In this document: positions 553 to 47,688 of the stretch, one piece after another | How the letters are laid out: the number at the start of each line of letters is the position of its first letter | Numbering within the stretch: the stretch's first letter is position 1 | Source of the DNA: Glandiceps talaboti | Lineage: Eukaryota; Hemichordata; Enteropneusta; Spengelidae | Direction: 5' to 3' | DNA length: 64,000 bases | Assembly: GCF_964340395.1 (NCBI RefSeq) | Contig: NC_135551.1 | Span: 9,940,379 to 10,004,378 of the forward strand | Program-made: the position numbers and the translations under genes | The notes under the pieces: generated by a model | Databases searched by the model: none | The model's input: the letters and a program-made list of their open reading frames with translations, nothing else | Told to the model about the DNA's origin: nothing

Positions 553-3500
553 ATGTCGAAGTTAAATTTGGAATCACTAAGAGCAAGACTCGACAATATC
601 AAACCGTCAAAACAGATGCAGGAGAAAGATAAAGATAAAGATGACACTTCCCATGGGAATACTGGAACAGTTACTTTGGAATTTACAGGTATGTACAGTG
701 GCTTTGCATGCCAAATCCAAACCTTCAAGATCATTAAATTATAGTTTATCACTTTAATATAAACTTTGTGTTTGTTATCACCGTGGGCCTTCTAAAAGTT
801 TGCATTACAGATACTGTGTGTAAAATGTATTTACATACGTAGTAGTAGTGCCAAACCAGATGTCTTTTCCAAGATGCAGTTTATACAACTTATGTTATAC
901 CACCTATTTTAAAATTGAATGTAATCGGAACCACACAAATTTTTTTGTTACGCCTGACCGTGAATTCATATGGCCGCCATTTTACTCCCAAATATATCTA
1001 TCAAAGAGTCACTATCCTGTCTGACTACCTGCAAAGGGCATTTTACTGGTCCTTACAGACAGTTACTGGACTCGGGATAGTAGGCCAGTGTGTATGTCGA
1101 ACCCTGTTTTAGACTCTTCACCTTAAAATAAACAGACCCCATTTTAGACTAAAAGGCTAGTAAATGTACATATACTCAAATAAGAGAGTAGCTTCCCCCA
1201 CCCTCCCCTGGGGGAAGGAACTGACAGGGAATTGTAATTGGTTACTTCATTCAGACAATTGCTCATTAATATTCAATTAGTACAACTCAATTATTGTTTG
1301 TTTAGATTTGACACTGACAAACATTTTTTTATTTTTTTTCCTTGCAGACCATACATCTTGGTTGAATAAGATAATAGAATGTGGTAACAAGCCAGAGAAT
1401 TGGTTAGAATTTTTAAATTATGTGGAGTTTAGAAGAAACTACCAGGACAAACAAACACGCTATCAGTACCTGTATAGTGTGTTTAGTAAAGCTATACAAC
1501 AAATGTCACTGGATGAGAATAAGAAAAATCTAAACTATGCCAAGATTCACATCAGATTTGCTCTCTTACAGGGGTAAGTTATTTAGCATTAATTTTATCT
1601 TATTAGTCTGATTTATTTCACCACTTCTGATATTTTGCTCAATTGCAAGGTGACATTTTTGAGGGTCAAAGCCAATGTTTTTTGCTATGGTTTTGCTGGT
1701 AACAGAAGGGGGGGACATACATGTATGGTAACACTGTGGTATAGTCTCAGCATCCCATTCTTTATACCATAATAACTTTGGTCAGAAACCCCAGTGAAAT
1801 GAAAGGGGAACCCAAGGTAGATTTTACATACTTACTGCCCTTAATTTTAGAAAGGTGCAGTATTGAGCATCATATCAGTACCACTTAACTTTTACATCAA
1901 ACAGATTGCTACCTGATCCTTATATAATCAGTAAATATATTACTGAGTTATGTAAAAAAAAAAAACTCTAATAAGTATTTCACAGATATTCTACATGGTA
2001 CATGTAGCGCTATCTAATGTACATGTACATGTATGCAGTGATATCTCCAGGCCATGTACATGTAGAGCTAGCAATGTCCACACTTAAATCAATTCGAAAC
2101 CAAGTCAGACTAAACTGTTCAATGAAGTCAGTTTGAAACTGGTCTCAGTCCTCACAAGAAAACTGATCGGTGAATCTGAATTAATCACCTTTGTTTTTGC
2201 ATTGGCTTGAAACCTACTTTGAGTAAGTTCAAAACCTTCCCAGTAGTTTCAACTAAATCAATTCAAACCAGTGGGTTTTAGTGGAAGTGGGGATAGGAAA
2301 ACCGACTTTGATACAAACATTTCAAAAGTCAACATAGGGACAGTGACAGGTTGTGTGTATTCAACGGTGACAGATCAATTCGTCCCAATTTCAACTCGTC
2401 CCATTTCAACTCGTCTAATTTTCAACTCGCCCCATTTTCAACTCGCTTCAACTCTTTACAATATAATTTACCTGTGCATATATGAAATCGAACCTAGTAG
2501 TACTCAGTTTGGAGGGTCTGTGGTATCTCGTATTCCACTAATGAAGTAACACTTGCGCTGTAAACACATACTACAATACTTAGTTGCGTTAACTAGGGAG
2601 AGGAGACACGTCTCCAAAACAGGTACACGTGGAAGTCGTAAGCGTGTCAGTCACTAATATTCTCCCTGGTTATATTATCATTATTATTTCTTATTTGGGT
2701 CCTAATGTGAAAAGTGATATTCCATGACTGTGGAAAGTTGTTGTGCTAGTATAAGTTCTAGATCTAGCAAACACTTAGCCGAAACCCACACCACTTTCTG
2801 CTATGAAATGTTACCTTTGCTACGCTTCAGCTGGCCACGTAGGTAAAATCATGTGAATTTTTCGGTCCTCGTACTTCAAGTCCATGTATCGTTTAGATTT
2901 ATAAACGTTTACTAGTGTTGTTGGGGCGAATTGAAAATGGGACGAGTTGAAATTGGGACGAAGTGAATCGCAATCGTATTCAACATATTGGAGTGGAAAT
3001 TCTACAACCTTTAACATGGTATTTAATCATTATCACTACAGTGACAAATTTTTCTGACAATATAAATGTCATGGGGTTTCAAATGTTTTCACCCACTGTG
3101 TAGTTGCTTTGACTCACCAGTATGTTGTTGGTACGTACACATATATATTTCAGAGAGGATGACGTGGAGGATGGTAGAATGCAGTTTCAGTATGCTCGAG
3201 CTAATCTAAGAACTATAGCATTGGTACATGTCGCAGCTGCACAGTATGAACTTGAACATGGTAAGTGGGTCAGAGCTAATCTAAGAATCATAGTATTGTT
3301 TAAGTGTAGCAGCTGAACAGTTTGAACTTGAACATGGTAAGGGACCATCGCACAATGTCGCACAAGCTCAATAAGTTAACTTCATTCATTTAGGACAAAA
3401 CCCCCTCCCCTATATGAATGTTCACAAGTGTGACATGACAAGTTTATATAAGATGTGAAGCTTGATAAAATTTGTAGCTGTCACACCACTGCCGTCAATA

Positions 3501-6500
3501 CAATGTAAAAACATGATAGTAAGCACATCAAAATACTACCGGAAACCCAGCACTTTATCTCACATTAGAAGTAAATTTTAATGAACTTATCAACATCTCA
3601 GTTGTAAATATCAAATCGTTGAAGGAGTGAAAGTTTTCGAAATTTTGTTAGGAGTGCGAAAATGAAGTTCAGCAATCACATTGATGGCAGACCCCCTACC
3701 CCCTTAAACCAAACAAAGTTCATTTATTGAGCTTGTGAGACATTGTGTGATTGTCAGTAAGTAATGCAGAACTCATCATGCAGCACATTGTATACATGTA
3801 CGTCAACAAAATAGATGTGCTTCATCCCAAACGACCACTGTACTTTATCTAGATGATTGTTATTATAAACTAGTACAATATAGATGATCCCCACTTGTCC
3901 TCTGGGCTGAACATACATGTATACTGAAGCAATGTTCATGTGGCTAGGCACATAAATTTAGAAGGCAGGTTGTTGTGAGGCAGAGAGTGAGCAACGGTGG
4001 ATATATAGAGAGAGGAGTCACTCCAGTTGTGGCTAAAATCAGAATACTTTATTTCACAGGATAAGTAATGTTAAAAGCTCAAAGTATAGGAAGTGGGTTG
4101 TAACTAATAAGGATATACATTATATGTATATACAACATCTGTTTATGTAAGCGATGATATTACTGGCATTTATGAGATGTACGAGAACATTCTTGAAATT
4201 GAAGTGACCTCTGATGTCTCCGGCAGTTCACTTGAATCATCATTTCATTGTAGATCATTGAAGTTTACCTTGTAACTGTACAAGTACAATGTTTGTTGAC
4301 TGTCAGACATTACTATAGGGTAGAGCATATGTCTGATAATGACTTTTCAACTAACTCATCCCTACAATCTTTTGACAGATAATGTACCAAAGAGTAAAAG
4401 TATCATGAGAAAGGCCAAGGAAGTGGAAGCAGAACCAACAGAATTGTTAAACCAAGCTATGAGAAAATTAATAAATGGTGAAAAACAAATTTATGGTGCT
4501 GAAGAACATGGCATCAAACCAAGTAAGACATCTCACGGATATATAGCATAACTTTGAAATAAGATTTTGAAGTAGCAAAAAGTATGGTGGTAGTTAATCA
4601 TAAAGTGTTACCACTATTGTATGACTATGAACCCATGTACCTCGTGGAGTGGGGGTCATGATGCCTGGGCAAATTGTTAGAGTGACTGACTTGGATTCTG
4701 CAGGTTGCAGGTTCAAGCCCCGTCGCTACCATTTGTTTCTGAATGACTAAAGTCCTTGGACAAGATTTGAACCACGATAGTGCCTCAGTCAACCCAGCTG
4801 TATAATTGGGGACCTGTAGTGGTAGGATAGAGGTTGCAATGTGAATGTTTTAATCCTATGTGCTTATATGTTATAGAGGCTGCAGTGGATTATATATACT
4901 CCCCAGGGAGTTGAGAAAGTCTAACTTACATGTTATAGGCATGCCTTATATTTAAAAAAATACATTGTTTTAGTGTCGAGTATAGCAGTTTTAATTATTT
5001 GTTTTGTTAATTCTATTTTCAGGTCATCATACTTCCAGGATAAGTGAGTTAGGACATTACCGTCACCGTTCCTGGGTAAACAGTGGCAGTAACAGTAGTG
5101 GTGGAAGTAACAGTAGCAAAAATTCATCAGAAGAAGATATGAATGTACCAGCTAAAAGCACTTTTTCTAATACCAGGTAGGTTCTGAGAAGTGGAAAATT
5201 AGTGTTTTGTCTGTTGTATAAAGGTTACCCACAGCAGAGAGATGTTGAACATGTTCAGTTTTGAAGTCTAATATTAAATGTAATGTCTATACTGACTGTA
5301 GGCCATTGCATGCATTCATTCCTAGTGTTATTTAGAGATGCCAGCGATCAGAACATTGTTTTATCAATAGTGGACATTTAAAACTAGCTTTGTACATGTA
5401 GGTGTCAAATTCTTCTCGTTATCACACTATAAAAATAGAACTGTCACAAAATAACAGCGAATGTCTCTGGTGTAGGTTCATGCGACGCTTTCATCATTTT
5501 TTTTATGTCTGTGGAAGTTAGTCATATTATTACATACGAATGACTAACTTTCACGGACATAAAGCAAACTGTCATGAACCAACATCAGAGGTCCTTATTG
5601 TTTTTTATGAAGGCTTTGCAATCATATCATGCATTCACAGCAAATTCGTTGTATGTAACAATTTGGCTCCTGTATCTTGGTCAAAATGTTCAACATTGTC
5701 ATTATTTGACACATGTACATTAACCTTGCATAAGTGTGATTACACAATGTATATATTATCCACCAATATGTTTCTTCATTCAGTCATAATATACTTGTGA
5801 CCTAAGGAGTTTTTTGTTATTGCTTGTGTTTGACACATAGTGACAAGGCCCCATAAGTCACTCATATTTTCCTTGGCTGAATGAAGACAAATATTGGGGA
5901 ATAATTAGTAATGGTATGTATTTCATATTTCAGTTTGAACAGCTCTAGTGCCAGTTCAAGTAGTTTGTCAGATCACCATCACAGCACTCACATGACAATT
6001 GATGGAACTGTTAGTTTCAAGACAACCGACAGGTAAGACACTCTGTTCCCGCCGTGCTCCTACGTAGACTGACTCTCTACTGTCTTGGGAGTGTCTCTAG
6101 CAGAAAGGGCTGTTTTGCATGAACTGATACATGTATCTACCAGATAATTGTACTCGAATATCCTTGTACTGTGCGCGCCATCGACTAGATAGGGCTAACC
6201 ATTCATTGACGTCTTACTGCTACGGCCCCCACTGAATGCTGCGTCAATTTGAAAGATTAGTCGGAGGTCGACTTTTTTATGATAGCGCCACATAGGAGCT
6301 TGTGTGTTACCCCTTGTCCTTGGCAGTTACTGTATTTAGAACTGTTTCATAACTCCTTAGCAATGGACCACATCAACCTTGTAACACTGCGTTTCTCCTA
6401 AATGATGGGTTTATTTGAAGCTAGTGTTTAACTTCTTGGAGGGTCAGACTACCAAACAGAGGCCTTTTTCATATTTGTTGTATACTAATCTATTGAAGCT

Positions 6501-9500
6501 GTGAAATTCAAACCAGTTTCAGATTTTGAACTTCAAAATGAGGGTTACCAATATGTTGAATTTAAAACTAGCTTTACTGCATTCATTCCTCTTCGTTTTA
6601 GTGCAATAGTTAGCTTGTATCCTGAAATGTGCAGTCTTGCTGAAGACTTACATGCTTCCATATTCATATTTATTACAGTAACATTATTCTTCAGGGTTCA
6701 ACATCTTTGTGATCTACCTTTATGTTAGTTTTTTTTTCTGGACGTATATTTATTTTTTTTAAATCTATTTATTTGTTTATAATGTATTTAATGTGTATTT
6801 TGTTTTGTTATTTACTCAGGTCTCACTCCACAGTAGAGAAGTCAGCTGGTAGTGATGCAGACACAATACCAATGCAGTTCCCACATACAGCACAAAAGAG
6901 TGATAGTCGTAGAAAAGAACATGTAAGGATATATTAGTTTATAATTCTTATCATTACCTGATTACACCTACTGATGCCCAGTGCTCGAAAGAACGTCATT
7001 AAGAAGTCCTTTATTCAAACTGCTGTAAAACTTTTAAACTTGGACTTGGCAAAGAGTAAATGCAGTTTTTAATGCTATTGTTCTCAGTTATTTTTCTGTA
7101 GCACAAGCATGCTCTTTTTACCTTCAGTTTTACATTGGTGTTTTGTTTTGTTTATGTCTGTACGCATGTCTTGTCATTTATTACATTTGATGTTTGTCTG
7201 GTGCCAAGACGAATTTCCATGTTTTCTTGGACAATAAAGTATATCTAATCATAAAAAAAACAAAACTATAAATATAAAAATGTTACCACTTACGATGTCA
7301 TAAAAAATAACTACATTGTAGTTTGATTTCTTGGTCGACATGAGATCAATGATCAATGCATGTATTGCCCTTGTTGTTGTTATGAAAGTATTGAGAAAAC
7401 ATTTCAAGGTTCTGTGAATTTCATACAACTTTGAATGTACTGTCAAACAATGGCTTTTTGAATCCATGAATGTTGTGTTAACCAACCAAGCTATAATTGT
7501 AGAACTTTGTCAATTGGATGTGAGACATGTAGGCTGTATGGATTGGATTATAATCATTTGTTGATCACTATATTTACAGGCATACCAATTTAGTCAAAGT
7601 GCCAAAAAAAGTGTGAGAGGACCAGTGTTTACACCAGATACCAAGCTACTACCATCTGTCACCAGTGCCAGTGCAGGACCAGTTAGAGTACCAAGAACGT
7701 AAGTCAAACTACAAATTACACTAATCCAGGAATCTACATCTCTTGATTGCAAATTTCTGTTTCTTATCTATCTAAATTGTTCTTAGGGAACATAAAATGT
7801 GTAATGATATGCACAGTCATTCGGCAATCCCTTGATGTCTTACCTGTAGCTTCTTTGTCCCAAGGATGATGTGTGTGTGTGTCGATGTTTCAGTTGGAGT
7901 CGGATGGTGTTGTTTATATTAAATTTGTAATGAGTGGTCTATGGGAAGCCTGTTTCTTATCTATCTAAATTGTTTGCATTTATTGTACATTACCAACAAA
8001 ATTGATGAATTTATATATTCGATTTCAGAAACTCGAAGTTCGGGGGACCTGTAAGATTTGCTAGAATTGGTTTACCAAAAGTCTATGAATATAAAGGACC
8101 AGATGAAGATGATGACGATGATGACTACGATATACTCCACGGTGTCAAACCACTGGATGAGACTGATGGTCCAGGAAAGGTCACAGGTCACAGTCCTGAT
8201 GACAAGACAGGGGAAAAGTCAGCTTCCATGGACATGATTTCCAGAACATCAACCGGAATGAGACTGAATGCCAAGGAAAGGAAAGAATCGATGACATCAA
8301 CTGTGGATCGTCTGAGAACCAAGTCTGTAATCCAGAACTTTGAAAGAGACCAGGTCAAGAGTAGATCGTCTATAGCACAGGGTTCTAATATGGTGACATC
8401 TGAGAGTTTGCCAGACAAGATGGAAACCAACAAAGCTGTCCCTGAGGTGTTATCGTCAGTGAACTCTCGGAAGGCTAGAAATATTACAAGTAGTGGTCTG
8501 AACACGCCATACTCTTCTAAGCCTCTCCTTCGTCAATCCGCAGTGTCGAGTGTAACTGAGGTGTCACAGGACAACAAGACTGTGACATCACAGGACAGCA
8601 AGACTGTGACGTCACAGGACCGGCCAACGGTAGTGACTACAACACCAAAACCACCTAGGCTGCTGTCTATTTTCAATATGGATTCAGAGGAGGAAGAACA
8701 ACAGCAACACAAACAGCAGCAGGTGCATGAACCAATGGATGTAGAGATGGCTGACGTTGACACAGTCAAAGCCAAGCCACAGCAGATACCTGCAACATTA
8801 CCACAACAACAAGTGCAGCAGCAGCAGCAACAACAACAACAACAACAGCAGCAGCAGCAACCATTACCCATGAACTTGCCTCAAACCTTGCAAACATCAC
8901 AAGCTGCAGTACAGTACAGGTATGTATTCTAAACTGTCTTGATGCTGCCGTTGACACTTTGCTTAGTAACAACCCAATGTTGCAACCAGACTGAGTTTTT
9001 GTGTCATTGTTTTGTCAATTTTTTTTTGTGCAATATTGTGCGATCATTCTAAAACAGGGAGTGTTTGCCAGAAGACTGTACTTCCCATATACATTTAACA
9101 TCAATCATTTGGCAAGTTCAGTCTGTTGTTTCAACTGTCAGACAAGAATACTTTTATTGCTGAACACAGCAGGATTGTGTTCATTGAAGAGAGAGTTTTG
9201 TTTACATTCATTTCAGCTTTTTACAATCCCCTTGTTAACAATCATGCTGTGTTCAACAGTAAAAGTGTCACTACCTACCAAGTAAAACAATAACTTAAAC
9301 CTTCCAAAATCATCAACTTTGATCATAACTGTATTTTTTTAAATTTACATAAGTGTTTTGGCAAAAATTGCTTCTTTTAGCTGTATATACTATAGAACAC
9401 CTAGAAGATAACACTGACATACTAGTACTACAAAACCAGAGAGACTACATGTACAGAGTTTCAATTTGGCGGCACAGTGTTTTGTAGTAAAAAAATCTTG

Positions 9501-12500
9501 AGTCAGTTTTTGTCCTCAATGCTCCTATTGTTGGCTTTACAGAATTTGTGTAATGAGCGCCACCAACGATGAATCTTTGGGTATACGTGTAGATCTGACT
9601 CTGAACACATCAAAGCAGTTTTAGAAATGCACATATTCATTCTGTTTCTGTCACTGCAGCCATACCCCATCTCAATACAAATGTTACTATTCTGTCTACT
9701 CTTGTATTGATCTTTGCTTCATTTTTTTTTCTGAATAGTCAAAACCCACCATCCGTGATGGGGTACCAACAAATGATGCAGCAGCCATGTCAATTCCAAC
9801 AACCGACTTTCCCCCCTCAACAACCTATGATGCCACCACAGGGGTATGCAACACCGCAGCCAGGCTTGCCTGTTACCCAGGAAATGATGGTAAGTAACAC
9901 CACAGTCAGGCCAAATCTTGCCTGTCACCCAGGAAATGATGGTAAGATTATCACAGACACTTTGTAGTACATGTATTTATTTGTTGACACCAATATCTTT
10001 TAAATCATGTCGCCATTTCTGAGGACCTGTGTCTTCTATAAAGACGTGTTTACACACACTCAGACAACTTCAACTGCAAAATAAACAATTATTATAGCTG
10101 TGCCACGTACATCATAGACTGTAAATTGAAGATCTTTCATAATATAGCATTGTAACTATTCTTTTCTGTATTTTATTTTTATTCAGGCCATGCAAGCACC
10201 CATAGCAGCCAAAAAGGATGTGATCGTAGTCAATGGTAGATCCTATAACATACTGAGAGTCATTGGTAGAGGTGGTTCTAGTAAGGTATGTGATTATAGT
10301 CAATGGTAGAGGTGGTTCTAGTAAGGTATGTGATTATAGTCAATGGTAGATTCTGGTGAGATTAGTGGTCCATACTTGAATATGATTTTTTTCGAATATG
10401 ATATATCATCTTCGTCTCAATAAATTTATCATTGAATTCCATTTGGTTTGTAGGTATACCAAGTGTTTGATGAGAGTAAAAAGAAGTTGTATGCCATTAA
10501 ACAAGTCAACTTAGAGTGTGCTGATGAAATGACAGTACAGGGTTACATCAATGAGATTAATCTACTCCAGAAATTAATGAAGAGTGAAAGAATAATACAT
10601 CTGTATGATTGGTGAGTTTGCATATTTCTAACTCTATGTACATGTAACATCTCTGGTGAGTCTTCGTATTTCTATTAACTCTATGTAACATCTCTGGTAC
10701 ATGGTGAGTTTGCGTATTTTTAACTCTATGTAACATCTCTGGTGAGTCAACTCATGTCTACGTCATTGGTTCTGCTGTGTTCAAAATATGAGTCAAAACG
10801 TTCAAAATTTCCATTACTTTCCCCGGTTTTTCTTTGATATCACTGGCGCTGGTATAATTATGTTATTCTCCTATATTTTTCTTCATTCAGCCTGAAAATA
10901 CTTATGACCTAAGGGTGACAAAGCCCCTTAGGTCATTCATATTTTCCTTCCACTTATGTAGAATAGAGCAAAAATACAAGAACAAGGGATTGAATCTTGG
11001 GTCTCGTAAAGCGTATTCGAATGACTTGTTTGTTTATAGGGTACTGTCTGGACATCTGTCTTTCATCAGTCTTACACTGTGGGACTATACATCATATTAC
11101 TATGGGAACTGAGCCTTCACTTTACTAAGATAGACACAAACTAAAACTATTGTCGCAACATCTCAATACAACAGTCAGTGATAAGCTATTGAACGGATGT
11201 TGGTTTAGTTTTAATTATAGTCTCGGTTGGGGAGGGCCAAGTGTTGCTGAAGTTGATTTATTTATAGTTCCTATAAACTTGCAGTAGTGTCTTGGGACTT
11301 CCAATGTTTACACTAGCTATGTTGATCACAGGGTGATTAGAATTACACAACAGAGGAACCACTATCACCAACTTGTGTAAATCTACCACATTGAAGTACA
11401 GTAGATTTAGTTTGTGTCTGTCTTAGTAAAAACCGAAGGCTCGATTACCAGTGTCGTATCTTCTCCCTGAACAAATCATGGACATACATGTACTTTACAT
11501 TGTAACGCACTTGTAGTTTCAAGGAGTGCTCGCCATGTAAATAAAAAATCTTCTCTTTTTTTTATTACTTTCAACAGTCAGGTGACAGATACACATATTT
11601 ACATGATACAAGAATGTGGTAGTATAGACTTGGCCAGTTTTCTACGTAAAGCTAAGAAACAGAAAGCTATCAAGAATGAAGACATCAAGCATTACTGGAG
11701 ACATATGCTGGAAGCTGTAGAGTGTGTACATAAAGAAGGTAAAGTGAAAATGGCTCTAGGACAGATTACTGATTTTAAGTTTGAGAAAACTGTGATATCT
11801 TTTGTTTGACGCAAGTCAACAGGATCACCATGCTGTGACAGAACGCCATGACGTGTGAGTGTTGATCTGACATCCATGTACTCAAGGTATTTGCCAATCT
11901 GATTCAAATCTGATGTAGTGTACACAGCACAATTTCTTTTTGGCTGTTACATTTACTGTCGTTTGTTCTTTTGTGAGTGCCCGTTTCATACATCTGACAC
12001 AATACCCGATATATCTGATACAATTTGCTGAACCCAATCTTGTACTTACGCATAGCCAACCAGAATGTCTTACAGAATAACACTCAATGTTTGAAACTGA
12101 AAGAAAGAGAACCACCAAACAATAACTATAATGTCCTTGCCTGCACTCTGCTCTTTTCAAACAGAGCGCTCTGAAGTACTGTACCCATATTTTTTTGGCA
12201 CATTACGTGTTCACATTTGTTGAGTGAATTCACTCAGCACTCATGTAGCTCTGGAAAACCTATGGTATTGTGTCAGATGTATGTAACAGGCGTTCACAAA
12301 AGAACAAACGACAGTAAACATAACAGCCAAAAAGAAATCATGCAGTGTACACTACATCTGACTATAATCAGATTGGGTATTAGTATGAGAACTTGCAGTG
12401 TTCTCTACGGCCACACTTTCACTTTCACAAACGACGTTTACGTAGTGACTGAAAGTGTACCAGAAAACGCTACAAACACACTAGTACCCACACTTGACCT

Positions 12501-13843
12501 CTGATGTCATGGGGCTCTGTAATTATGTTTATGTTTATCCAAAAACAGTAAATACATGTAAAACATTACAAATACATGTATGAGTTCACATGATTGTGTG
12601 TAGAAAGATCTACCATGTACTCGCATACAGAATGTTTTTAGTGTTGTACAACTTGTACTGCAGTGAAATACCACTAATATGTGGGTGCACCAATGCAATA
12701 AATCACTGATATGTAATAATGTTACATACCTCAGACTAATTACTACTTGTATAACAAGACCTTGGGTCTATGCTTGTACGGTTACCTGAAAGGTTATCTA
12801 ACAAAAACTAAGGATGACAGTCCCACTGGTGCACAGCCCTTGACAGTACCTCTGGCGCTATGCGACCTGTGGTCTCTTTTAAAATCTTACAGGGTAGCAG
12901 AATTGCCCAAGAGTCTAGCAGCTAGACTACAGTACATTGTACCCCAGTAATTGAGAAATTTTTAACAGAACATACTATAATATTGATATAATTTTACCCA
13001 AAGAATCACCCACAGTGACTTGAAGACATTTTATCCTCCATGTATACTTTTTACCCTAGGAATCATCCACAGTGACTTGAAGCCAGCCAATTTCCTATTT
13101 GTGGACGCTACATTAAAGCTGATAGACTTTGGTATAGCTAATGCAATTCAACAAGACAAAACCAGTGTGATACGGGAATCACAAGTTGGTACGTTAAATT
13201 ATATGTCACCTGAAGCTATCCAAGACACGTCAGCTACACCTAATTTTGATGACAGAGGACACAGAAGACCAAGACTCAAGGTATGTAATCACACTGTCTA
13301 TATTGTAGGTAATAAAAGAGAACGATTATCATCTCATCAAAAAATTGTTATTTTGCAAGACACTCACAGTCTGTCTGAATGAAAATCATGATTACAAAAA
13401 TCAAATTAGGTGCCAAAAAAAAAGAAATTGTTTGGTTCCGGTAACCCAACCCAACCTAGCTTTTTACTTCCCACTCTAAACTTTTTTTTAGGTAATTTGA
13501 AAAAAATTATCAAAAACTCAAAACAGTTTGAAAAGTCATACAAGAAATAGGGAGATTTGAAGATGTCATCCCCTTGTGTGACCCATAACGCAAAGACCAT
13601 ATGGAAGGGATCTAGATAAACAACAGAAAACATAACCTGAACCAGATAAAAAAAAAAGAGTTATAAAATTTTTTTAAAATCCTACCTACCCACCCTATTT
13701 TGAAATTGGACGTTATCAGAACCACACAATTTTGTTTATATGTGGTCTTACATTTCTTGACATATATATATACAATCTCTCTGACTCTGCATGTGATAAA
13801 AATATAACAGACAAATATGGAAAGTTATCCACCCCTCTCCATG

Positions 13844-13893
<50 letters not shown>

Positions 13894-15563
13894 CTTCTGA
13901 CACCCTTGCACAAACACCCCATCTTAGGACAGTGAAATAAAGTACACGATTTTCACTTGACTCAATCATTTTATTATTTTATAGATTGGATGTAAGAGTG
14001 ATGTCTGGTCCCTTGGCTGTATTCTGTACTATATTGTATACGGCAAAACACCATTTCAACACATCAGTAACCACTTTGCCAAACTACAAGCTATCTGTGA
14101 TCCCAACTGTGTGATTGAATTCCCACAACATGAAAACAAACTGGTGATAGATGTATTACAGGTATAGTAGTAGTTAGACATAGTTATTTATATGCAAGTT
14201 CTCTTCTTCCACTTATGTTTCAAACAAATCACTTGTCCTTCTTCAGTGTCTAACTGGATCTAACTGGGTCTAACTGGATCTAGCTGAATGATCCAAATAT
14301 GTTGGAGGTGTAACCAGAGGTGTGAAACGGTTTACTTCAATATGTGTAACTTTGGATCATTCTGTGACTCAGATCTAGCTTACTGAGCTTGTGCGACTTT
14401 GTGCGATCATCCCTTACATGTCATAAAGCCAACAAACAGACAGTTTGACAAAGCTGGTGTACATGTACCTGAACAGGTGAAACGTTACTGCTGTGTAAGA
14501 AGAACTATTTATAACAACCCTAAGAATTATGTTTATGTCTTGATTTCAAATATGTGTGTTCTTCTTTTTTATTTGTTACACAGAAATGTCTGAGAAGAAA
14601 CCCAAAGGAGAGACCATCCATACAGGAGTTACTAAACCATCCATATCTACAGGCACCACCATCTGCAATGAATGTGATGAATGTTGAACTACAGTTTAAA
14701 AATCTTTTAACTCAGTTGACCCCACACTCTCCAAACTCCATCAATCTTATGACACGTAGTTTGATAGCTCAAATGCAGACAGGTGGCAATGTTGACATGT
14801 CAGCTATGCTGAGTAATAAAACTAGTCAGGTGAGATTTGCATACCCTCATAACTAGCTATAACCATCACCAGCTCTAACCCTTATCAGCTGTAAAGGCCA
14901 GAGTTTCAATCTCAGGTTCTCACATAATGTTATTTTATCAGTGGAATCATGAAGATTACATGTACATACATTTGATCTATGTGTGCGCCATCCTTACCAA
15001 TACTCAGCCCTTACCCTAAACATCACTAACCATAACCAGCCGCATTCCAAATAAGCTAACTATGATAATCATCAATTTTTTTGTTCGCCAGCTAATTACT
15101 TTCCAGAGGTATTGATTTGTAACATTTCATATACATACTGATACTTGCTTCCAATTGATATGGTTGGGTAGAACTCACAAGTAAAAATAATAAAATGAAG
15201 CTTTCTTTGACTGTAAAATTTCAAATTCTTTGTAGTTCACATATATTAATGTACTCATTTGTTGTCTAATTACAGGCTACTACAATGGGCCCTCCAATTC
15301 CACCACCTAACTTCTCACTACCACCAAAATCAATACAACACCAACCCATGATGACCCATCCACAACCACACATCTCATCACAAGTACCTAGATCAACGCC
15401 GTCACAGAGACAACCACTCGGTATGGTCAGCATGCAAGAATTTGGACAGGTTCAGAATGTGCAACCGAATCCAGAGTCTGTCTGCAACAAGTATACCAGG
15501 AATACAGTGGATAGAGAGAATGACGGAATGCATTCTGAACCTGGTGTCTTTCCACAACACTGA
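553..15563 (+). CDS. TTK: Dual-specificity kinase TTK/MPS1 (spindle checkpoint), 17 exons
   Basis: This is the kinetochore kinase that starts the spindle assembly checkpoint. Exons read from splice sites, all phases compatible: 553-688, 1348-1573, 3154-3260, 4379-4522, 5023-5176, 5934-6032, 6820-6922, 7580-7698, 8029-8919, 9739-9889, 10187-10285, 10454-10611, 11578-11738, 13060-13280, 13985-14161, 14584-14829, 15276-15563. The product is about 1159 aa; human TTK is 857. Residues about 46-165 form the N-terminal TPR region ([31 protein letters not shown]). The linker is Ser/Gln-rich and disordered, with an acidic run and poly-Q. The kinase domain is about 730-990: GRGGSSKV loop, Lys759 in [13 protein letters not shown] (Asp855), DFG Asp872, and activation loop [14 protein letters not shown], where Thr894 matches human Thr686 and Thr884 matches Thr676. 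HSDLKPANF and [12 protein letters not shown] identify the family. The tail is Pro/Gln-rich. The exact C-terminus is the least certain part, because an alternative last exon may lie at 19145. Confidence 0.95.
904..955 (+). repeat. Fragment of dispersed GGAACCACACAA repeat
   Basis: This piece of TTK intron 1 contains ATTTTAAAATTGAATGTAAT followed by CGGAACCACACAA. It matches the right arm of the inverted-repeat element at 13413-13740 and, on the other strand, a stretch at about 54474-54530. It looks like a partial copy of the same transposon family. Confidence 0.5.
1192..1218. repeat. GC-rich hairpin in TTK intron 1
   Basis: CTTCCCCCA and TGGGGGAAG form a perfect 9-bp stem around a short C-rich loop, in a very AT-rich intron. 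No role is evident. Confidence 0.5.
2080..2280 (+). repeat. Dispersed repeat, copy 1 (TTGAAACC-rich)
   Basis: In TTK intron 2. The stretch carries CAATTCGAAACC-like words and a core TTTTTGCATTGG, then TTTGAGTAAGTTCAAAACC. A diverged relative in the same orientation lies at about 54905-55190, with TTTTGCATCGG and TGTGAGTCAGTTCAAAACC at matching spacing. The family is unknown. It has no open frame and is probably a non-autonomous element. Confidence 0.45.
2376..2970. mobile_element. Foldback-type element with repeated TTTCAACTCGTCCCA arms
   Basis: In TTK intron 2. The left arm (2376-2454) holds four to five tandem versions of a 15-bp word, ATTTCAACTCGTCCC. The right arm (2922-2970) holds the reverse complement of about three of them, and roughly 470 bp lies between. 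Inverted ends built from tandem units are typical of foldback DNA elements. No transposase is present and target-site duplications are not clear. Confidence 0.55.
3198..3336 (+). repeat. Tandem duplication of TTK exon 3 end plus splice donor
   Basis: The last 60 or so bases of exon 3 and its GTAAG donor are repeated about 76 bp downstream in the intron (copy 1 about 3198-3265, copy 2 about 3273-3341). Shared words include GAGCTAATCTAAGAA and TTTGAACTTGAACATGGTAAG (last G of the exon at 3260 and 3336). The offset is not a multiple of three and the second copy meets a stop, so use of its donor would truncate TTK within the TPR region. Confidence 0.85.
4651..4915 (+). mobile_element. tRNA-derived SINE in TTK intron 4
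   Basis: The head looks like a tRNA with RNA polymerase III boxes: an A-box-like GCAAATTGTTAGAGTG near 4671 and a good B box GGTTCAAGCCCC near 4710. A non-tRNA body follows (TCCTTGGACAAG, then GCCTCAGTCAACCCAGCTGT and GGGGACCTGTAG), similar in style to the conserved central domain of widespread animal SINE superfamilies such as MetaSINEs. The superfamily name is from memory and unverified. The tail end is uncertain and there is no poly-A. It is not a functional tRNA gene, since the head has lost a normal cloverleaf. Confidence 0.7.
5464..5592. mobile_element. Long imperfect hairpin (MITE-like) in TTK intron 5
   Basis: The inner arms TTTATGTCTGTGGAAGTTAG and CTAACTTTCACGGACATAAA pair almost perfectly around a loop of about 20 bp. 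Outer arms GGTTCATG and CATGAACC extend the stem to about 125 bp overall. The shape suits a small palindromic DNA transposon remnant. Confidence 0.55.
5774..5886. mobile_element. MITE, CTTCATTCAG / GACCTAAGG family, copy 1
   Basis: A 113-bp element in TTK intron 5 with perfect 10-bp terminal inverted repeats CTTCATTCAG and CTGAATGAAG, and inner arms ACTTGTGACCTAAGG and CCATAAGTCACTCATAT. Related copies lie at 10881-10951 and 59744-59854, which supports a genuine dispersed family. Confidence 0.7.
6063..6240 (+). mobile_element. Partial copy of the TAGACTCTCTC MITE family
   Basis: In TTK intron 6. The order of words GACTCTCTAC, CTTGGGAG, GCTGTTTTG, ATGTATCTACCAGATAATTG and CATTCATTGACGTCTTACTGC follows the left half of the better preserved element at 43088-43359. 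It is a degenerate half-copy. Confidence 0.55.
8558..8632 (+). repeat. TTK: Coding tandem repeat VTSQDxKT in TTK linker
   Basis: Within exon 9 the coding sequence holds three tandem 24-bp units that translate to [16 protein letters not shown] and SQDRPTVV. They lie in the disordered linker before the kinase domain. Ser-Gln pairs are possible ATM/ATR-type phosphosites, which is inference only. Confidence 0.7.
8813..8862 (+). repeat. TTK: Poly-glutamine (CAG/CAA)n tract in TTK
   Basis: A mixed CAG/CAA run encodes about 16 glutamines just before a PLPMNLPQ stretch, inside exon 9. Interruption by CAA should make it more stable than a pure CAG run. Its length probably varies between individuals. 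Confidence 0.85.
9848..9947 (+). repeat. Tandem duplication of TTK exon 10 end plus splice donor
   Basis: The exon end ACCCAGGAAATGATG and its GTAAG donor (last exon base 9889) recur 52 bp later as CACCCAGGAAATGATGGTAAG (last base 9941). The upstream words match too: ACACCGCAGCCAGG against ACACCACAGTCAGG. Splicing at the second donor would add an open but frame-shifting 52 nt. Confidence 0.85.
10211..10350 (+). repeat. Two and a half 40-bp repeats across TTK exon 11/intron 11 boundary
   Basis: Exon 11 contains AAGGATGTGATCGTAGTCAA TGGTAGA (10215-10241). The exon's end and the first bases of intron 11 repeat this as AAGGTATGTGATTATAGTCAA TGGTAGA, twice, 40 bp apart (from about 10282 and 10322). 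The unit also includes the coding end GGTGGTTCTAGTAAG. The splice donor GTATGT therefore lies inside a copy of coding sequence. The 40-bp copies are almost identical, so the event looks recent. Confidence 0.85.
10611..10747 (+). repeat. Repeated splice-donor units at start of TTK intron 12
   Basis: The donor of exon 12 (GT at 10612) begins a unit of about 40 bp, GGTGAGTTTGCATATTTCTA then ACTCTATG..ACATCTCT. Near-copies start at 10655 and 10703 and a fourth start at 10741, each with GGTGAGT. Reading past the first donor meets TGA at once. Confidence 0.85.
10881..10951. mobile_element. MITE, CTTCATTCAG / GACCTAAGG family, copy 2
   Basis: In TTK intron 12. It begins with the same CTTCATTCAG terminus as the 5774 copy and has a strong hairpin, ATACTTATGACCTAAGGG paired with CCCCTTAGGTCATTCATAT. 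Its right terminus is lost. Confidence 0.6.
11110..11442. mobile_element. MITE-like element with 38-bp inverted ends
   Basis: In TTK intron 12. Left end GAGCCTTCACTTTACTAAGA then TAGACACAAACTAAA; the right end is the reverse complement of TTTACTAAGACAGACACAAA with GAAGGCTC outermost. The interior is non-coding, about 330 bp overall. Similar words (AACTA(A/G)AACTATTGT(C/T)GCAACAT) recur at about 17061. Confidence 0.55.
11886..12382. repeat. Large inverted repeat (two ~120-bp arms) in TTK intron 13
   Basis: The left arm 11886-12006 is the reverse complement of the right arm 12264-12382 with few differences; shared words include CACAAAAGAACAAACGACAG and ACAGCCAAAAAGAAAT. The spacer is about 255 bp. 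In the transcript this would fold into a long stem. Two insertions of one element, or a foldback element, would explain it. Confidence 0.75.
12992..13085 (+). repeat. Tandem duplication of TTK exon 14 acceptor edge
   Basis: The acceptor region and first codons of exon 14 (TTTACCCTAG, then GAATCATCCACAGTGACTTG) are preceded about 58 bp upstream by TTTACCCAAAG and AATCACCCACAGTGACTTG. The upstream copy encodes a version of the catalytic HSDLK motif but lacks a good acceptor and is out of use. Confidence 0.8.
13413..13740. mobile_element. MITE-like element, AAATTGTGTGGTTC family
   Basis: In TTK intron 14. The left end GAAATTGTTTGGTTCCGGTAAC is matched by the reverse complement of the right end (GTTATCAGAACCACACAATTT). 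It is about 330 bp with no coding capacity. Partial relatives sit at 904-955 and about 54474-54530. Confidence 0.55.
13845..13892. repeat. (CA)n microsatellite
   Basis: An uninterrupted dinucleotide CA run of about 24 units in TTK intron 14, between the MITE-like element and exon 15. Confidence 0.97.
14891..14960 (-). mobile_element. MITE, AAAGGCC family, partial copy
   Basis: In TTK intron 16. AAAGGCCAGAGTTTCAATCTCAG, with TTATTTTATCAGTGG after it, is the reverse-strand form of the element ends found at 25124-25290, 32683-32804 and 58931-59156, and parallels 42741-42815. Confidence 0.6.
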
Positions 15564-24194: not shown

Positions 24195-39960
<15,766 letters not shown>

Positions 39961-42605
39961 ACCATTGGCCCCACCACAGTTGGCAGTACCTCTTATTAAA
40001 ACGAGGGCTTTGGGACCAACATATCCTATTTAGTGAGGAAACCCATGATATATAACAATATGGTGCCACTGCTTCTGCCATAGTTGGCAGTACCACTCAT
40101 GAAAAGAATTTATTTGATTTAAATATCATATTATCCCATTTTATACGGGACCATTTCAAATAAAAACAAAAGTAGTTCATACTTCTACCACAGTTGGCAG
40201 TACTGGTTATTGAATGCGTTGAGTGTATTTCCATCGAAAGAAATCGTGGAAACATTCACATCTGCTCCTGTCGTAGGATGAAGGACCAACTTATCCTACT
40301 TGAAAGACTCCTTACAAAGCAGATCTAGAAACATTGTAACTGACCTCTATACCATAGAAGAACTTATCTTGTCTCAAAAGTTCACACACATAACGATATG
40401 CCAATAAATTATTCGCTTTACTCATAAGTGGCACTAAAGTAGAAAGTTATACAAATCAGTGTTAGAAGAGTATTCTGAATATGGAATTCGAAATGTCTAG
40501 ATTTTATTTTTAAAATGTTAGTTCTTGTTTTATGAACTTTGTAACGAGGGCATAATCGTCCAAATGGGGAGGGGTGGGTTGGGGGGGGGGGGAGAGGAGT
40601 GCCTGTTTGTACTTAAATCATGTAGTTGCAATGATGCAAACTTGGATTGTACATTGGGTGTCAAGGCACTGTAGAAACTGTACTATTGACACAGTGGAGT
40701 AAACAAACACGAACAACTATGAGTTTGACAATCACAGAATAGTCTTTTTGTTGCATGGATATGATGTAGCATCTACAAGGTCTTATATGATTGGCCAACA
40801 GTGAACTAATCCAGTCATTTACCGTGAAAATAAAACTTTCCAGAAAAAATTCTTTTGGAAATAATGCATATTTTGATACTTTGAACAGTACTGTTTTCAA
40901 TGAAATTAAATGATAGTATATATTGATATGTAATGGTAAAAATCCGTTAGTAGAGATGGTTGGTCAAACACTGACAGTAATAAATTATTTCTATTAAATT
41001 ATTTCAACATATAAATAAGTGGTTTGCATGAATCTGAGGGGGGGGGGGGAGGACTGCACTGGTTGAAGTTCATTTTTATCCTCATGCAAGATATACTAGT
41101 AAATAACTTTCAAGTTCACAGTAGGTAACTAAATCATCACAGCTATAGTCTTTATATCTTACTGGTATTTCATTTTACATTCCTCAGCATGTTCCGTTAA
41201 TGAAACTTTATTTACGCAACTGATATAATTTCCAAGTCTTTTCAAAAATATCTCAGTGAAGTATGACTTCCGTCCCATTTCTCCTTACTTTAAATTTATA
41301 CTTTTTTTTTTAAATATTGTCAATTGAAATTTCTAACAAATCATTTCAATTTAAAAGTCATTAAAAGAATAATTTGATTTTTTTTTTGGAATGTAATTAT
41401 TTTAAACAAATATTGTGCGTAGATAAAAAGAAATGAAATGAAAATTGTGCAATAATACAACAAAAAATGACAATTTCAGTATACACACATATTTTATTTC
41501 AGTTTAAAATGAATATTAGAAAAAAAGAAGACTTAAAACATTCTATAAGAACTTGGAGATCACTGTATGTGATCTCGTGTTGTGTTAGTTGAATAAATAA
41601 GTTATATCAAAATTCATACTACTTGTATTGTTTGTTTTTTTACTAAAATATCTGACTATGTGCAACATATATTTACACTGTTTTAACTCGCTATGTTCCA
41701 AATTTCAGACATTTTTGTCTATGGACTTACTGGAGGATAGCCCAAGTTTTGGGTTCAAATGAATTTGCCTCTATTTTGATTCAACATTAAAGCTCGGGAT
41801 GGATATTTTTAGGTGATTTTGAACTCGATGTTCTCCTCATCAGATTTTCACAAGAACCTACGAAGCCCCAGAGGTTGAAAAAATCTTAATAATTCCAGGT
41901 TTCAAAATAGGAAAAAAGAAAAAAAAGTATCTGGGGTCCGGTGGTTAATTTGTTAGCTCAGAGACTTGTCTTGGTGGTACTTGTATGTAAACCTATGATG
42001 TAATTGTGGTCACACATGACATGACACTAAGAGGATGGCAAAAAAAAAAACAAGCACTAAAGTCAATATGAGATACACTTGGATTTGGTGATGGTAATCT
42101 CAAATTCCAAACACATTCCTGTGCTTCTAATTGCATCTGCCTCGGCTTGGAGTGCAGAGTTTCTCAAGATAGTAACACCAAGACAAATTTCTGGGCTACT
42201 GTTTTGTATTCAGTTTTGCATAAAATGAAGTTGTTTGATTTAATCTTATCAAGATGGTGACGCTAAGAAATTACATGGGGCTTGCGATGTACATTTTAGA
42301 AACATGATTCCATCATAATCGTCCCAATCCAATGATCAACTCATAATTGCCTATCACCCTACGATAGGACTTGGCAACAGCGCCCCCATGAGGTCATCTG
42401 CAAATATTTGTTTTCCCTGGTAGCATTTATACTGATCATAGTTCCATGTACAATTTTCCATTTCAAAATCCTCATGTTTTTTTACTACAAGTTGCAGTCT
42501 ATGTATTCCCTGATATATTCAGTCAATAATAAAAATGTTAAAAAACGTCACAATCTCTTGAATGATACACATAATTGAAAGTTCCAGTGTTTGTTTGTTT
42601 GTTTG
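39961..42605. other. HUNK 3'UTR and HUNK-YRDC convergent spacer
   Basis: Possible HUNK poly-A signals AATAAA are at 40159-40164 and 40403-40408. No coding exon is seen between the two convergent genes. The DNA is AT-rich with poly-G runs near 40580 and 41039. The YRDC poly-A site could not be placed with confidence. Confidence 0.45.
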
Positions 42606-45600
42606 TTATCTCCTCTCCTTCAGTCCATATTTGGTCTCCAATACAGCAACAGTTCCTTTGTATGCACTGTTGAAATAAAAACAAAAGAAAATATGACATG
42701 ATTTATTGAGGGCACACTGCAGCTCAGGTTGCTACTTATACATTTAAAGGCCGGGGTTTCAATCCCAGGTTCTTACATTAGTGTCATCTTATCAGTGGAG
42801 CCATAAGGATTACATAGAATAATTCTTTTGTTCTGCACCAACTTTTTCCATATCTTTGTCAGACAACTGTTCTTCACACATAATGTTTAATCTTTTTTTT
42901 TTTAAAGTAAGCCTTTAACATCATTCTAAAATTTGAGGATTTACTAATTTGCATGAACAACTTTTGGTTCATAATTTCTCACTGAGCTAGACAGGGTGAA
43001 GAGATGATTGGATACCAAGGGTAGGGGTAGGGGTAGGGGTAGACTACACTAAATATATCTAGTCTACTAATACATTGTGGTAGTGTGTAGACTCTCTCAC
43101 CAGACTTGGGAGCATCACTATTAGCTGTTTTGTATGTACCAATATCTACCGAATAATTGTACTGGAATATTCTTATACTATGGACCCTCATCAACTACAT
43201 AGGAGTAATCATTTGTTGACATGTTACTGCGACTCCGTGTTATTGCGATGCTCATCAACAAATGAGTAGCCCTTCATAGTACAATTATGCAGTAGATATC
43301 GGTACATACAAAACAACCCTTTTAGAAGTGCAATGCTATGAGGACTGTGAGAGAGTCTAGGTAGTGTGTTACATGTCTGACTTTCACACATTCATCTTTA
43401 CTTGTATATGTAAATAGGATGTATGCAAATCACTGTTTATCTACCTCTCCTTTGAATAAAAACAGACAACAAATAATGTCTATTTCTCAGGACAGAGAGG
43501 GTGAAGTTTTACTAAATCAGTGTTGTAAATGTGCCTAATTCTTCAAATACTATCAAACATGTAGAATCTAACTGTTCTTTCAACAGAAAAATGAATGGAA
43601 ATTCTTACATAACTCTTGATACATTATTAGTATTGGTTTCTTATGTTTGTCTCCAACTTTACTACATCTGTGACAGACATTGAAAACTTAGAAACTATTG
43701 CTAGTACAACATATATGCATACATATTTTTTTCATTTTCTCATAAAGCAACTGTAAAACTAATTAACTGTCTACTATGTCTTATAAATCTCACCTTCCAG
43801 GTCGTACAATTTTATAAAAGCCAGTACAAGACAAATCTACCACAGTAGATCCTGATCTAGATTCCTCTGTTTCACCTATTTTACCGCCGTCAAATATCAC
43901 GTCTAATTTGGACCACAATTCTTGAAACTCCTGAAATACAATAAATTATGAATTAAATGATTTGAAACATAAACACAAGAAATGAACTTGACATGATAAT
44001 GGCTACAAGTAAACATTGCAGCATCAAAACCCTTCCTTGTACCAAATCACCATGTAAAAGTAAAGAGTTCTTTGTACATGCCAAACACTCCCCCCCCCCT
44101 CCCCAGCCCTGCTACCCAACAGGCTAGATGGTTGATATGGCAGGTGCATTTCATGTGTCTTATATACTACCCCAACTCCCCCCCCCCCCACCCCCTAACA
44201 AAATGGATGGTGAACCTGGCAAGTAAATGTAAAGTCCCACACAACCTGCTATACATGACTTCATAAGCCATATATATACAATCCCCCCTCCCTCCGCCAC
44301 CCCATTATATCATTGAAATAAATGGGTTCAGTCAATGCAAATGCAAATCTTCAAGCAACATCTACTGACACAGTATAACCGATCAACTGTATATTTGTAA
44401 TTTTAATCGTGTGTACGTAAATACATTATATATATTTTGAGTCATATTGAGTACCTTGCTGTTAATTTCTGTATATAAATATGTGAGGGGACAGGCCCAG
44501 ACTACCTGTAAGTTATTTCCTGACTCCCCATTTACCCACTGGTATATTAATTTGGGGTGATTATATAATATTAGGTTGGTGGCTAACCTGTCCTGCTTCA
44601 AAAATAGAGCGAACTCTAAATCTACATATTCATACACTGCCTATTTTAGAGAACACCACTTTCACTGCAATGATCATTCGTACACATAAACTTGACAACT
44701 TTGAAACTTAACCAGCTACTTTATATCTACTGTGGTTACAGTAATGACAGCATATACGGCACAACACAATAATCTTTCATTCCCCAGCGGCACCAACATT
44801 TAGCCTTGCTTTATACCACAGGTAAACATTGCCAGACTCATGGCAGGCCCTAAGTGTTTTAGTCTGGGTTACCCAGACTCTCCATGTATCCCCAGCAGAC
44901 AGTCTGGGATATATTACAACGTCAGACAGTGATTGTTACAAGATGGCTGTGTGGAAAGTCTGACCCACAACAATGACCTCTGTAGTAAAATCACACGGTA
45001 GGAACTCCTACTAAGAGTATTTTGATTAATTTCAAAAAGTTTGTTGTATGATTTGTGTTAAATATATACAGAGTTAATAAAAATGAAAATTCAGAATCAT
45101 TTTCATCCAATCAGTGACTGTCACAGATCTTGGCGGCAACCATGTTGGTCTTTACAATAGGTGGCAGCATATTACCCCACACTCTTGCTAGGTGGGTGTT
45201 ACCCCCAACGACAACAGTCTGGGTAACCGAGACGGTTAAGTGTTTTTGAAATACACGTTAATGCAGGTGTACTAACCTCAACACATAATGTACTCTTTGA
45301 AGCACTGATATTAGCACTAGTCAGTGCCAGTGGTTCATCTATCATTGCACACACTCTCCTAATAAAATCATAGTTTGGTATTCGGATTCCAACCAGCTTT
45401 GTATTGGGATTCAGCTCCGGATTCAGGGATGGTGTTCTCTCTAGTACCGTGGTCACTGGACCTGGTAGCAGATCTTGTAAAAGGTTTGTGGGTACAGTCA
45501 TTTGCCCCCATCTGGAGAGAGAGAGAGAATTAACACACAAACCCATCAGTACTTTTTTTTGAATGATTGGTAGATACAAAAAAGAGCATTTCAACAAGGG

Positions 45601-47688
45601 TGCCACATCGATATTGGAATGTGGAAATTTTACCTGGAACACCTCCCACTGTCCAAAAAACCTTAGCAAAAAAGATTAGCCCATACATCATGTGGTTACT
45701 GAGATGGATGGAGTAGTGAAATACCACTAAGAATTGTCAAGTAAAAATACTAGTATTTGGCTTGTAGTCCCTCTAATGCTAATATAGACTTACTTCTGTA
45801 TATCTTGTAATCCACTAACATATCGTGGTGTTTTTTGTTAAGGGCGGTAAATGGGTAAAAATCTACCTGCGTTCCCCTGTCACTTTAGTGGGTTTCCCTG
45901 CCAAAATCATGGTAATATGCATTGGAAACTATGCCGATTTTACCATATTCCCCTTTTTTGTTACTGGTGGTCCCCCCCCCCCCCAACCTTAGCAAACACA
46001 CTGCAAATGACACTCACTTCTCTATATCCTTTAACTCACTGACACAGATGGCAATAGGTTTAGATCCATTCCTTCCTTTGATGTTGTACAGTTGCTGAAC
46101 AGCCTCTGTTGACTGGGCCAGTGCAGCAACTCCATATATGGTATCGGTTGGCAAGGCGATGACATTACCCTTCTTTAAACTTTCGGCTGCTATGACAACA
46201 GCATCACTGCAATCTGATGAAAAGAAAGTTGGAAATCAAACCAAAACATTTATCACAGTAAAGTGTGTACTAGATATGATGGCATTGACTTCATCAATCT
46301 TTATCACAATGCATAGACAACACACAAGTACTGTGGTATGTCACAATTCAGAAAATGTTTTTAATATGATAGACTCCTTCAATAATAAGGATGTACACGT
46401 AGTTATATTGGACAAAGAATACAGGTGGTTTGAAAGAGGGGTAAAGGACGCCATTTATGTTAAATGGGAGGAGCCTTCTCTTAATAGGGGAGGGGGACTA
46501 CGTCATAACTTGGCAGGCGATAACAACAGAGTGATTAGTAAAATTCCTCAACGGTTTTCATCATCACATGACAATCCTACTCTGTCGGGTGTCACAAACC
46601 ATCTGTCATCAGATCTTCAGTCGGCCTGAGGAAGCGTCCAGGATAGGACGTGAAACTGTTGCCATTCAAAACAATAGCAAGTCCAGTAGGATAGATTATA
46701 ATTACTCCGTTATGATAGAATTATAAAGTCTCAATAATTGCATTTTCATACACTCTGGGTTTCAGCGTCATTTCTTGCAATTACAAATTATGCATGACTG
46801 ACCGGACTCCTGTGAGACTATGTGTGTCCATGGCAACGACATCCACTAAACAATGATTGAGGGAAAAGTTTAAACCTGATATTTCTCACAATTGGGTGTA
46901 CTGGAACTTGTAAGTAAGTGATGTAAAATCATGCAATGACTCTCCAGAACCAAGAGTTCTTCAAAATGTGTTTATTTTCTGCAGTGGCGTTCCCTTCAAG
47001 TTACAACCTAACTACTACATGTTTGGAGATGTACTGGAGGGTCACTATTGAAATGTTGTATTCTAATGGTAGGTACTAGGTAGCACTATTTTTTTTTATA
47101 AGTTATAATAACTAATCAAAAATTATTCTTTTCATTGGAGATGATTTATTTCAAGTAAAGTGGCTAACATTTTGTTGTGGTAAATTCCCTGTGTGACATG
47201 CACATCAGAGATACACTATGCAACTAATCAAATGTACCTAATATCATTTACCCATTTGATCAGGTTTGGAGGATTCACAGATAGCCCTGTTACACTCTCG
47301 CAACAACGACTTAGCTTAATCATTACATGTATACACGGTGCAGTGTGTGGCACAGACGTACGTTTTCATGACTCTGATGAGGTGTAAATACATTATACTG
47401 ACTATTCAGGTAAATCATTAAGCTGTGAGAGTTTAAGGGGAAGTTAAAACTGTAGTCTGGAACCAGTGTTCATTATATAAAGGACATTTTCTTTCCCCAG
47501 TGTGGTACGTAGCAATGGATAACATAGACCCAAGGCTAAATGGAACACGTGGAATGCACACGTGTCTACGTCTCGTACTCACCTCCCTGGTTGATTTTGA
47601 CAATGTTCGCCATGTTCTCCGCTGTTACCTGTCTAAACTTATTGACCGATGTAGAAAGTAGTTTGACTGCAACATGCCTGTATATCAT
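42606..47688 (-). CDS. YRDC: L-threonylcarbamoyladenylate synthase YRDC, 5 exons
   Basis: The enzyme makes threonylcarbamoyl-AMP from Thr, bicarbonate and ATP, the first step of tRNA t6A37 modification in cytosol and mitochondria. Exons in gene order, phases compatible: 47688-47583, 46213-46018, 45511-45277, 43930-43794, 42666-42606; 244 aa (human 279). Family motifs: ALPTDTIYG (residues 55-63), IKGRNGSKP (80-88), LLPGPVT (115-121), LVGIRIP, ALTSANIS (163-170) and IFDGGKIGE...GSTVVDLS. The first Met directly follows an in-frame TGA. Residues 1-25 (MIYRHVAVKLLSTSVNKFRQ) are basic, lack acidic residues and look like a mitochondrial presequence. Met26 could start a cytosolic form. The exon 2 acceptor is taken as CATCAG before 46213; the CAG seven bases downstream would shift the frame. 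YRDC is convergent with HUNK and divergent from the 50078 gene. Confidence 0.95.
42741..42815 (-). mobile_element. MITE, AAAGGCC family, partial copy
   Basis: In YRDC intron 4. TTTAAAGGCCGGGGTTTCAATCC, with AGGTTCTTACATTAGTGTCA and TTATCAGTGG after it, is the reverse-strand form of the copies at 25124, 32683 and 58931. Confidence 0.65.
43018..43042 (+). repeat. (GGGGTA)4 G-rich tract
   Basis: Four GGGGTA units with runs of three to four G, able in principle to form a G-quadruplex. It lies in YRDC intron 4 on the strand opposite the transcript. Confidence 0.8.
43088..43359. mobile_element. Non-autonomous DNA transposon with 9-bp target duplication
   Basis: A 272-bp palindromic element in YRDC intron 4. 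Termini TAGACTCTCTC and GAGAGAGTCTA are perfect inverted repeats, and the arms continue with TTTTGTATGTACCRATATCT AC and ATAATTGTACT. It is flanked by direct copies of GGTAGTGTG at 43079-43087 and 43360-43368. A 9-bp duplication suits Mutator-like and a few other DNA transposon superfamilies. No coding capacity. Confidence 0.85.
43924..45276 (-). other. YRDC intron 3 region
   Basis: The intron proper is 43931-45276. Besides the 376-bp element below, it contains poly-C runs at about 44090 and 44180. No exon is seen. Confidence 0.5.
44861..45236. mobile_element. 376-bp non-autonomous element with 10-bp target duplication
   Basis: In YRDC intron 3. Flanked by perfect TAAGTGTTTT copies at 44851-44860 and 45237-45246. 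Its ends are related palindromes, AGTCTGGGTTACCCAGACT on the left and AGTCTGGGTAACCGAGACGG on the right. The right end stops about 40 bp from the exon 3 donor. No open frame resembling a transposase. A related end is present at 38315-38400. Confidence 0.85.
46310..46690 (+). mobile_element. 3' end of a Penelope-like retroelement (GIY-YIG region), fossil
   Basis: In YRDC intron 1, opposite in sense to YRDC. The plus-strand frame reads VVILDKEYRWFERGVKDAIY, then VKWEEPSLNRGGGLRHNL. This matches the C-terminal signature of Penelope-like elements (an ILDKE..W..RGVKEAIYI..PSLNR pattern in their GIY-YIG endonuclease domain). It is followed by a PEEASRIGRETVA-like tail. Reverse transcriptase is absent, so this is a 5'-truncated remnant. 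Family assignment rests on remembered motifs. Borders are approximate. Confidence 0.6.

Follow-up and report, generated by a model that had tools for sequence, protein, structure and literature searches.

Tandem copies of exon edges in the TTK gene of Glandiceps talaboti look like tolerated by-products of local duplication

Results

The TTK gene and its surroundings

We analyzed a stretch of 64,000 nucleotides from Glandiceps talaboti (C4:9940379-10004378; assembly of 590 Mb in 47 contigs), referred to here as the window. A TTK/Mps1 gene lies at its start (CDS 553-15563, plus strand), with 17 coding exons and 1,159 amino acids in a model that we rebuilt by hand. The junctions of this model are GT-AG and its frame is open with the first donors, and typed pieces of TTK find human TTK structures as matches (6e-100 for the kinase, 6e-22 for the N-terminal TPR part).

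The introns of the gene contain several inverted repeats. In intron 2, inverted arms made of a 16-nt tandem motif, TCAACTCGTCCCATTT, resemble a mobile element (2375-2967). An inverted repeat with 40-nt arms (88%) occupies 3343-3755, beginning 2 nt past the end of the exon 3 array described below, and could possibly be a foldback element adjoining that duplication. Intron 13 holds a large, foldback-element-like inverted repeat (11875-12395; arms of 132 nt, 84% complementary, spaced by 257 nt). Further along the window, a second protein kinase gene extends over 30716-39960, with MARK1-3 and AMPK as best PDB matches. A large open reading frame at 38842-39960 appears to be part of this gene, and a diverged repeat of ~100 nt (39855-40214) runs from that frame to beyond its stop. 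A gene with a Sua5/YciO/YrdC domain is found on the minus strand at 43800-46212. An Rfam search of the whole window returned nothing at the gathering threshold.

Copies at TTK exon edges

An earlier note on this DNA had described tandem copies at the edges of five TTK exons. Alignments confirm the exon-end copies after exons 3, 10 and 11, together with their GT donors (Table 1). In local alignments, exon 3 and its copy are identical at 59/68 positions with a period of 75-76, and exon 10 and its copy at 46/51 plus one 6-nt gap, with a period of 52. The exon 11 array comprises 2.3 copies with a period of 40 and is 98% self-identical (exon versus copy, 32/33); a second intron 11 match pairs an exon 11 segment further upstream (10214-10244) with 10323-10354, at 28/31. 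At exon 12 there is indeed an array of three donor-region units (44, 48 and 38 nt; identities 37/40 to 39/41), but the exon end itself is not copied: the array opens at the donor (TG/GTGAGT), the rest is intronic, and the exon-edge score of 15 is at background level. The acceptor-edge copy before exon 14 is borne out at 37/42, with a period of 57 where ~58 had been claimed. This copy carries AAA in place of TAG at the homologous position, with a weaker AG 1 nt further.

Table 1. Exon-edge arrays in TTK; a slash marks the splice junction
Feature	Position (strand)	Parts	Donor sites	Genome match
Exon 3 end and donor, with copy	3198..3341 (+)	source 3198-3260; copy 3273-3341	decoy ATG/GTAAGG after 3336	
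Exon 10 end, with copy	9844..9946 (+)	internal GTATG (9844) to donor; copy from 9890		itself only
Exon 10 copy	begins exactly at donor 9890 (+)		decoy ATG/GTAAGA after 9941	
Exon 11 3' part, with two partial copies in intron 11	10214..10360 (+)	copies 10286-10325, 10326-10360		
Exon 11 array decoy donors	(+)		after 10325 and 10355	
Exon 12 donor-edge array, intronic	10610..10748 (+)	3 units, each opening GTGAGT		
Exon 12 array decoy donors	(+)		after 10655, 10703, 10741	
Exon 14 acceptor edge, with upstream copy	12987..13085 (+)	source 13043-13085; copy 12987-13028		itself only

The duplicated unit spans the exon-intron boundary at exons 3, 10, 11 and 14, and at exon 12 only through the last 2 nt; in the TTK model the introns extend past the copies. 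Divergence ranges from about 3% to 13% across the arrays, and this variation suggests several events. Mismatches in the copies fall on codon positions 1, 2 and 3 at 5/64, 9/64 and 6/66, so that third-position bias is absent, which fits decay as drifting noncoding DNA. This absence, together with the predicted frameshift of the listed TTK alternatives, led us to reject the copies as alternative coding exons.

Several unit ends lie at short repeats. The exon 10 array opens with a GTATG inside the exon, its second unit begins precisely at the donor GTAAG, and a further GTAAG closes the array. The same three motifs occur at exon 3, with a few unaligned bases beside two of them, and the three boundaries inspected at exon 12 are all GTGAGT. 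The 40-nt unit of exon 11 is bounded by a 13-nt repeat, AGTCAWTGGTAGA. Break points at short repeats, some of which include the donor motif (GTAWG for exon 10 and, probably, for exon 3), fit microhomology-mediated duplication. Donor-like motifs at array ends elsewhere reach 5/53 against 8.7% at random, no clear enrichment, and the donor motif would therefore be one short repeat among many; break points at donor motifs, considered as a general rule, are not seen in this wider sample.

The arrays of exons 10, 11 (10258-10360) and 14 each match only themselves in the genome, in a search that skips very common words. The earlier note had argued that no shared mobile element explains the copies, and these matches speak for that claim as regards those three arrays. 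Mobile-element insertion, under which the array sequence should recur at many genomic places, is not supported for the same three.

Tandem duplication within the window

Leaving microsatellites aside, the window contains 14 tandem loci, 8 of them in TTK; two first-order Markov simulations of the window yielded none in the same scan. Among the non-exonic TTK tandem loci, 5/7 overlap junctions (null mean 1.94, P 0.020), or 5/6 (P 0.0046) without the single widely spaced locus. With rotation inside TTK we obtained P 0.009, and with rotation across the window (5/13 loci) P 0.008. All of these placement and rotation values (0.005-0.02) are post hoc, because TTK was picked for its pattern. Selection on the exon would also slow the divergence between an exon and its intronic copy relative to that between two intronic copies, a bias that would favor junctions.

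Exon-edge similarity with a score of at least 39 occurs at 4/32 TTK junctions against 2/189 positions in TTK intron interiors (P 0.004), a comparison within a gene that was picked for its pattern. The same score is found at 0/15 other junctions in the window and at 33/1,122 positions in the rest of it; at a score of 40, the counts are 4/32 for TTK and 0/15 for other junctions against 100/4,000 positions. Masked shuffles reached 39 in 24/5,000 cases. We used the masked null, the unmasked one being dominated by simple repeats, with a value of 160 for all quantiles shown.

Junctions and background in a genome sample

We extended the comparison to 25 loci of 10 kb, 26 short loci and 8 loci from a kinase search, all from the same genome. 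All were placed on kinase matches, so the sample is not random. Junctions outside the window are computational calls from an exon caller trained on TTK and on pieces of two other window genes. For the 15 internal TTK exons it recovered both edges of 11 and a single edge of 1, while 3 went uncalled; on one strand of three simulated windows it made zero calls. Short loci with no usable donor (L037, L051, L055, L057) or no usable acceptor (L034, L038, L041, L047) were left out of the respective counts. L001-L008, which contribute 8 donors, 8 acceptors and no hits, are long open kinase frames whose called junctions may be false.

Tandem duplication is common in this sample, with 103 non-microsatellite tandem loci in the 25 10-kb loci, or 0.41 per kb. 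Scores of at least 39 were reached by 5/128 junctions in the fetched loci, and by 5/143 of all junctions outside TTK, against 687/5,608 background positions, which were placed every 40 nt in the 10-kb loci, genic ones included (share per locus 0 to 0.46, median 0.10). Non-TTK junctions are thus below background (P 0.0003, a value that is too small since neighboring positions are not independent). Taken separately, acceptors are below background (P 9e-5) and donors are not (P 0.12), these values being too small for the same reason. Counts at a score of 40 agree with this, at 3/78 junctions against 298/3,544 positions, and 0/6 against 123/665. TTK compares with other genes' junctions at 4/32 versus 5/143 (P 0.06) at a score of 39, and versus 4/143 (P 0.038) at 40. 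The earlier note was right about local tandem duplication. Junctions do stand out inside TTK, a gene picked for the pattern, but the note's view that the tendency is specific to junctions is contradicted elsewhere in the sample, where background positions carry such copies more often than junctions do, an outcome of the kind that the note itself had named as removing the claim; a hot spot at junctions beyond TTK is rejected for this sample.

Similar arrays in other genes

All five hits outside TTK are donors, in genes whose proteins match NDUFS3, NEK7, PAK, PKN and MAPKAPK structures. Copies of exon end plus donor recur in the NEK7-like (L016), PAK-like (L022) and MAPKAPK-like (L053) exons. 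The PAK-like exon (L022, minus strand, 8967-9079) is followed in its intron by 12 copies, which after the first one succeed each other every 54 nt; every copy has a GAG/GTATGG donor that scores 6.5 against 6.0 for the native one. Two further donors with the native sequence lie downstream of the NEK7-like exon, and likewise two downstream of the MAPKAPK-like exon. The NEK7-like and PAK-like units run past the donor into the intron.

Three of the hits are soft. The MAPKAPK-like hit scores at the threshold of 39, and by eye its copies carry donors. The copied segment at the NDUFS3 exon (L011) stops 33 nt short of the exon end and has no donor. The PKN-like exon (L035, minus strand) has a short-form copy of 18 nt of exon plus donor; with its first donor taken as the native one of the two, the choice favored by the protein match, the score drops to 28. 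Use of the second donor of this exon would insert 20 residues in frame with no stop.

Across all junctions, 8/87 donors and 1/88 acceptors are hits (one-sided P 0.016), or 5/71 and 0/72 when TTK is left out (P 0.028). The single acceptor case is exon 14, whose copy has lost the homologous AG. Removing the PKN-like hit gives P 0.031 (0.058 outside TTK), removing either the MAPKAPK-like or the NDUFS3 hit as well gives 0.057 (0.12), and removing all three gives 0.10 (0.25). This fragile donor-over-acceptor excess is a lead rather than a result, and a low acceptor-side rate is at most suggested by it.

Discussion

We propose, with a probability of about 0.7, that the TTK copies arose by ordinary local tandem duplication, with short repeats as break points, in a genome rich in such duplications, and that copies crossing a donor have been tolerated. 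Local duplication would occur across the genome, with some units crossing an exon end. Where a unit crosses a donor, the original exon would keep a donor in first place, and the copy would stay in the intron and decay. Provided that splicing takes this first donor, the normal mRNA would still result, and such copies could be tolerated as neutral changes. Where a unit crosses an acceptor, the copied acceptor would come first, the message would more often be spoiled and the variant would more often be purged.

Two other readings give the donors themselves a role. The copies may be kept as decoys, as the earlier note suggested: use of a downstream donor by a fraction of transcripts would lead to an early stop and degradation, and so tune the level of TTK. 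The four donor-side arrays contain seven GT sites that agree with the donor consensus at 7/9 positions or more (7 being the selection cut-off), and all seven listed decoys are predicted to shift the frame, the resulting stops lying 848-2,746 nt upstream of the final exon junction. Use of any of 3 AGs upstream of exon 14 is likewise predicted to shift the frame into early stops. By a matrix trained on TTK's own donors, the scores of three exon 12 decoys (6.2-7.0) exceed that of their native donor (4.8), and one decoy of exon 11 ties with its native donor at 8.0, whereas those of exon 3 (6.9 versus 7.4) and exon 10 (6.4 versus 7.4) fall below. Early stops, however, are the usual outcome of any frameshift, the copies lack codon-position bias, and similar arrays are found in unrelated genes. 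Nothing in these data shows that the decoys are kept for regulation, and we regard this reading as unlikely; the copies are more readily seen as by-products that have been tolerated than as a means of regulation. Alternatively, the donor sequence might itself promote tandem duplication, so that donors move and introns lengthen. Unit ends at GTAWG or GTGAGT motifs, as seen for exon 10, for exon 12 and probably for exon 3, would be expected if so, as would the excess of TTK junctions over TTK intron interiors. Against this stand the low rate at junctions outside TTK, array ends elsewhere with no clear excess of the motif, and the NEK7-like and PAK-like units that continue beyond the donor, and such directed mutation seems to us doubtful.

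An assembly artefact, through collapsed alleles or mis-joined reads, is highly improbable. The self-identity of the exon 11 array would be compatible with one, for that array, but in the remaining arrays source and copy have diverged by about 5-13%, the gene sits on a 32 Mb contig, and TTK exon 9 has a single genome match.

Taken by itself, TTK is too unexceptional to matter. The recurrence in other genes, however, supplies natural cases in which to study how the spliceosome chooses among near-identical donors, the 12-copy PAK-like exon being one. More tentatively, and with considerable reservation, many natural exon-end arrays with intact and in places better-scoring donors a short way downstream of the real one, and almost none on the acceptor side, might record a strict first-donor rule across the whole genome. 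If such a rule were true, the donor nearest the exon's own acceptor would win whatever its strength, donor duplications would accumulate neutrally and acceptor duplications would be purged.

Competition between duplicated donor sites was reportedly studied by Reed and Maniatis in 1986, in constructs with several donors and copied exon flanks per transcript. Those were constructs, whereas the arrays described here are natural, with 12 copies in the PAK-like gene. Among the papers listed for us in an open-licence library, we found none that describes donor-side exon-end arrays.

That introns can arise by tandem duplication is well documented (2011 work cited in PMC3443670 and PMC4974935). The TTK copies resemble such intron gain in that exon sequence and splice-site-like motifs are duplicated while the coding sequence is apparently unchanged, and they differ in lying inside introns, with no demonstrated new intron. 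In the potato RdRp gene (PMC4974935), a tandem duplication across an intron-exon boundary crossed the acceptor and a new intron formed. There too the unit crosses a splice junction and an exonic donor-like site is involved (GTATG in TTK exon 10), but the TTK cases are mostly donor-side and leave their decoys in the intron. Drosophila genes have gained new intron positions through tandem duplication (PMC2891723); the shared features are duplication of exon segments at splice-like motifs and premature stops in the intervening sequence, whereas the Drosophila copies turned into introns at new positions. The TTK case belongs with these as a junction-crossing tandem duplication, one in which no new intron is demonstrated, and its copies show a concrete route from exon sequence to intron sequence.
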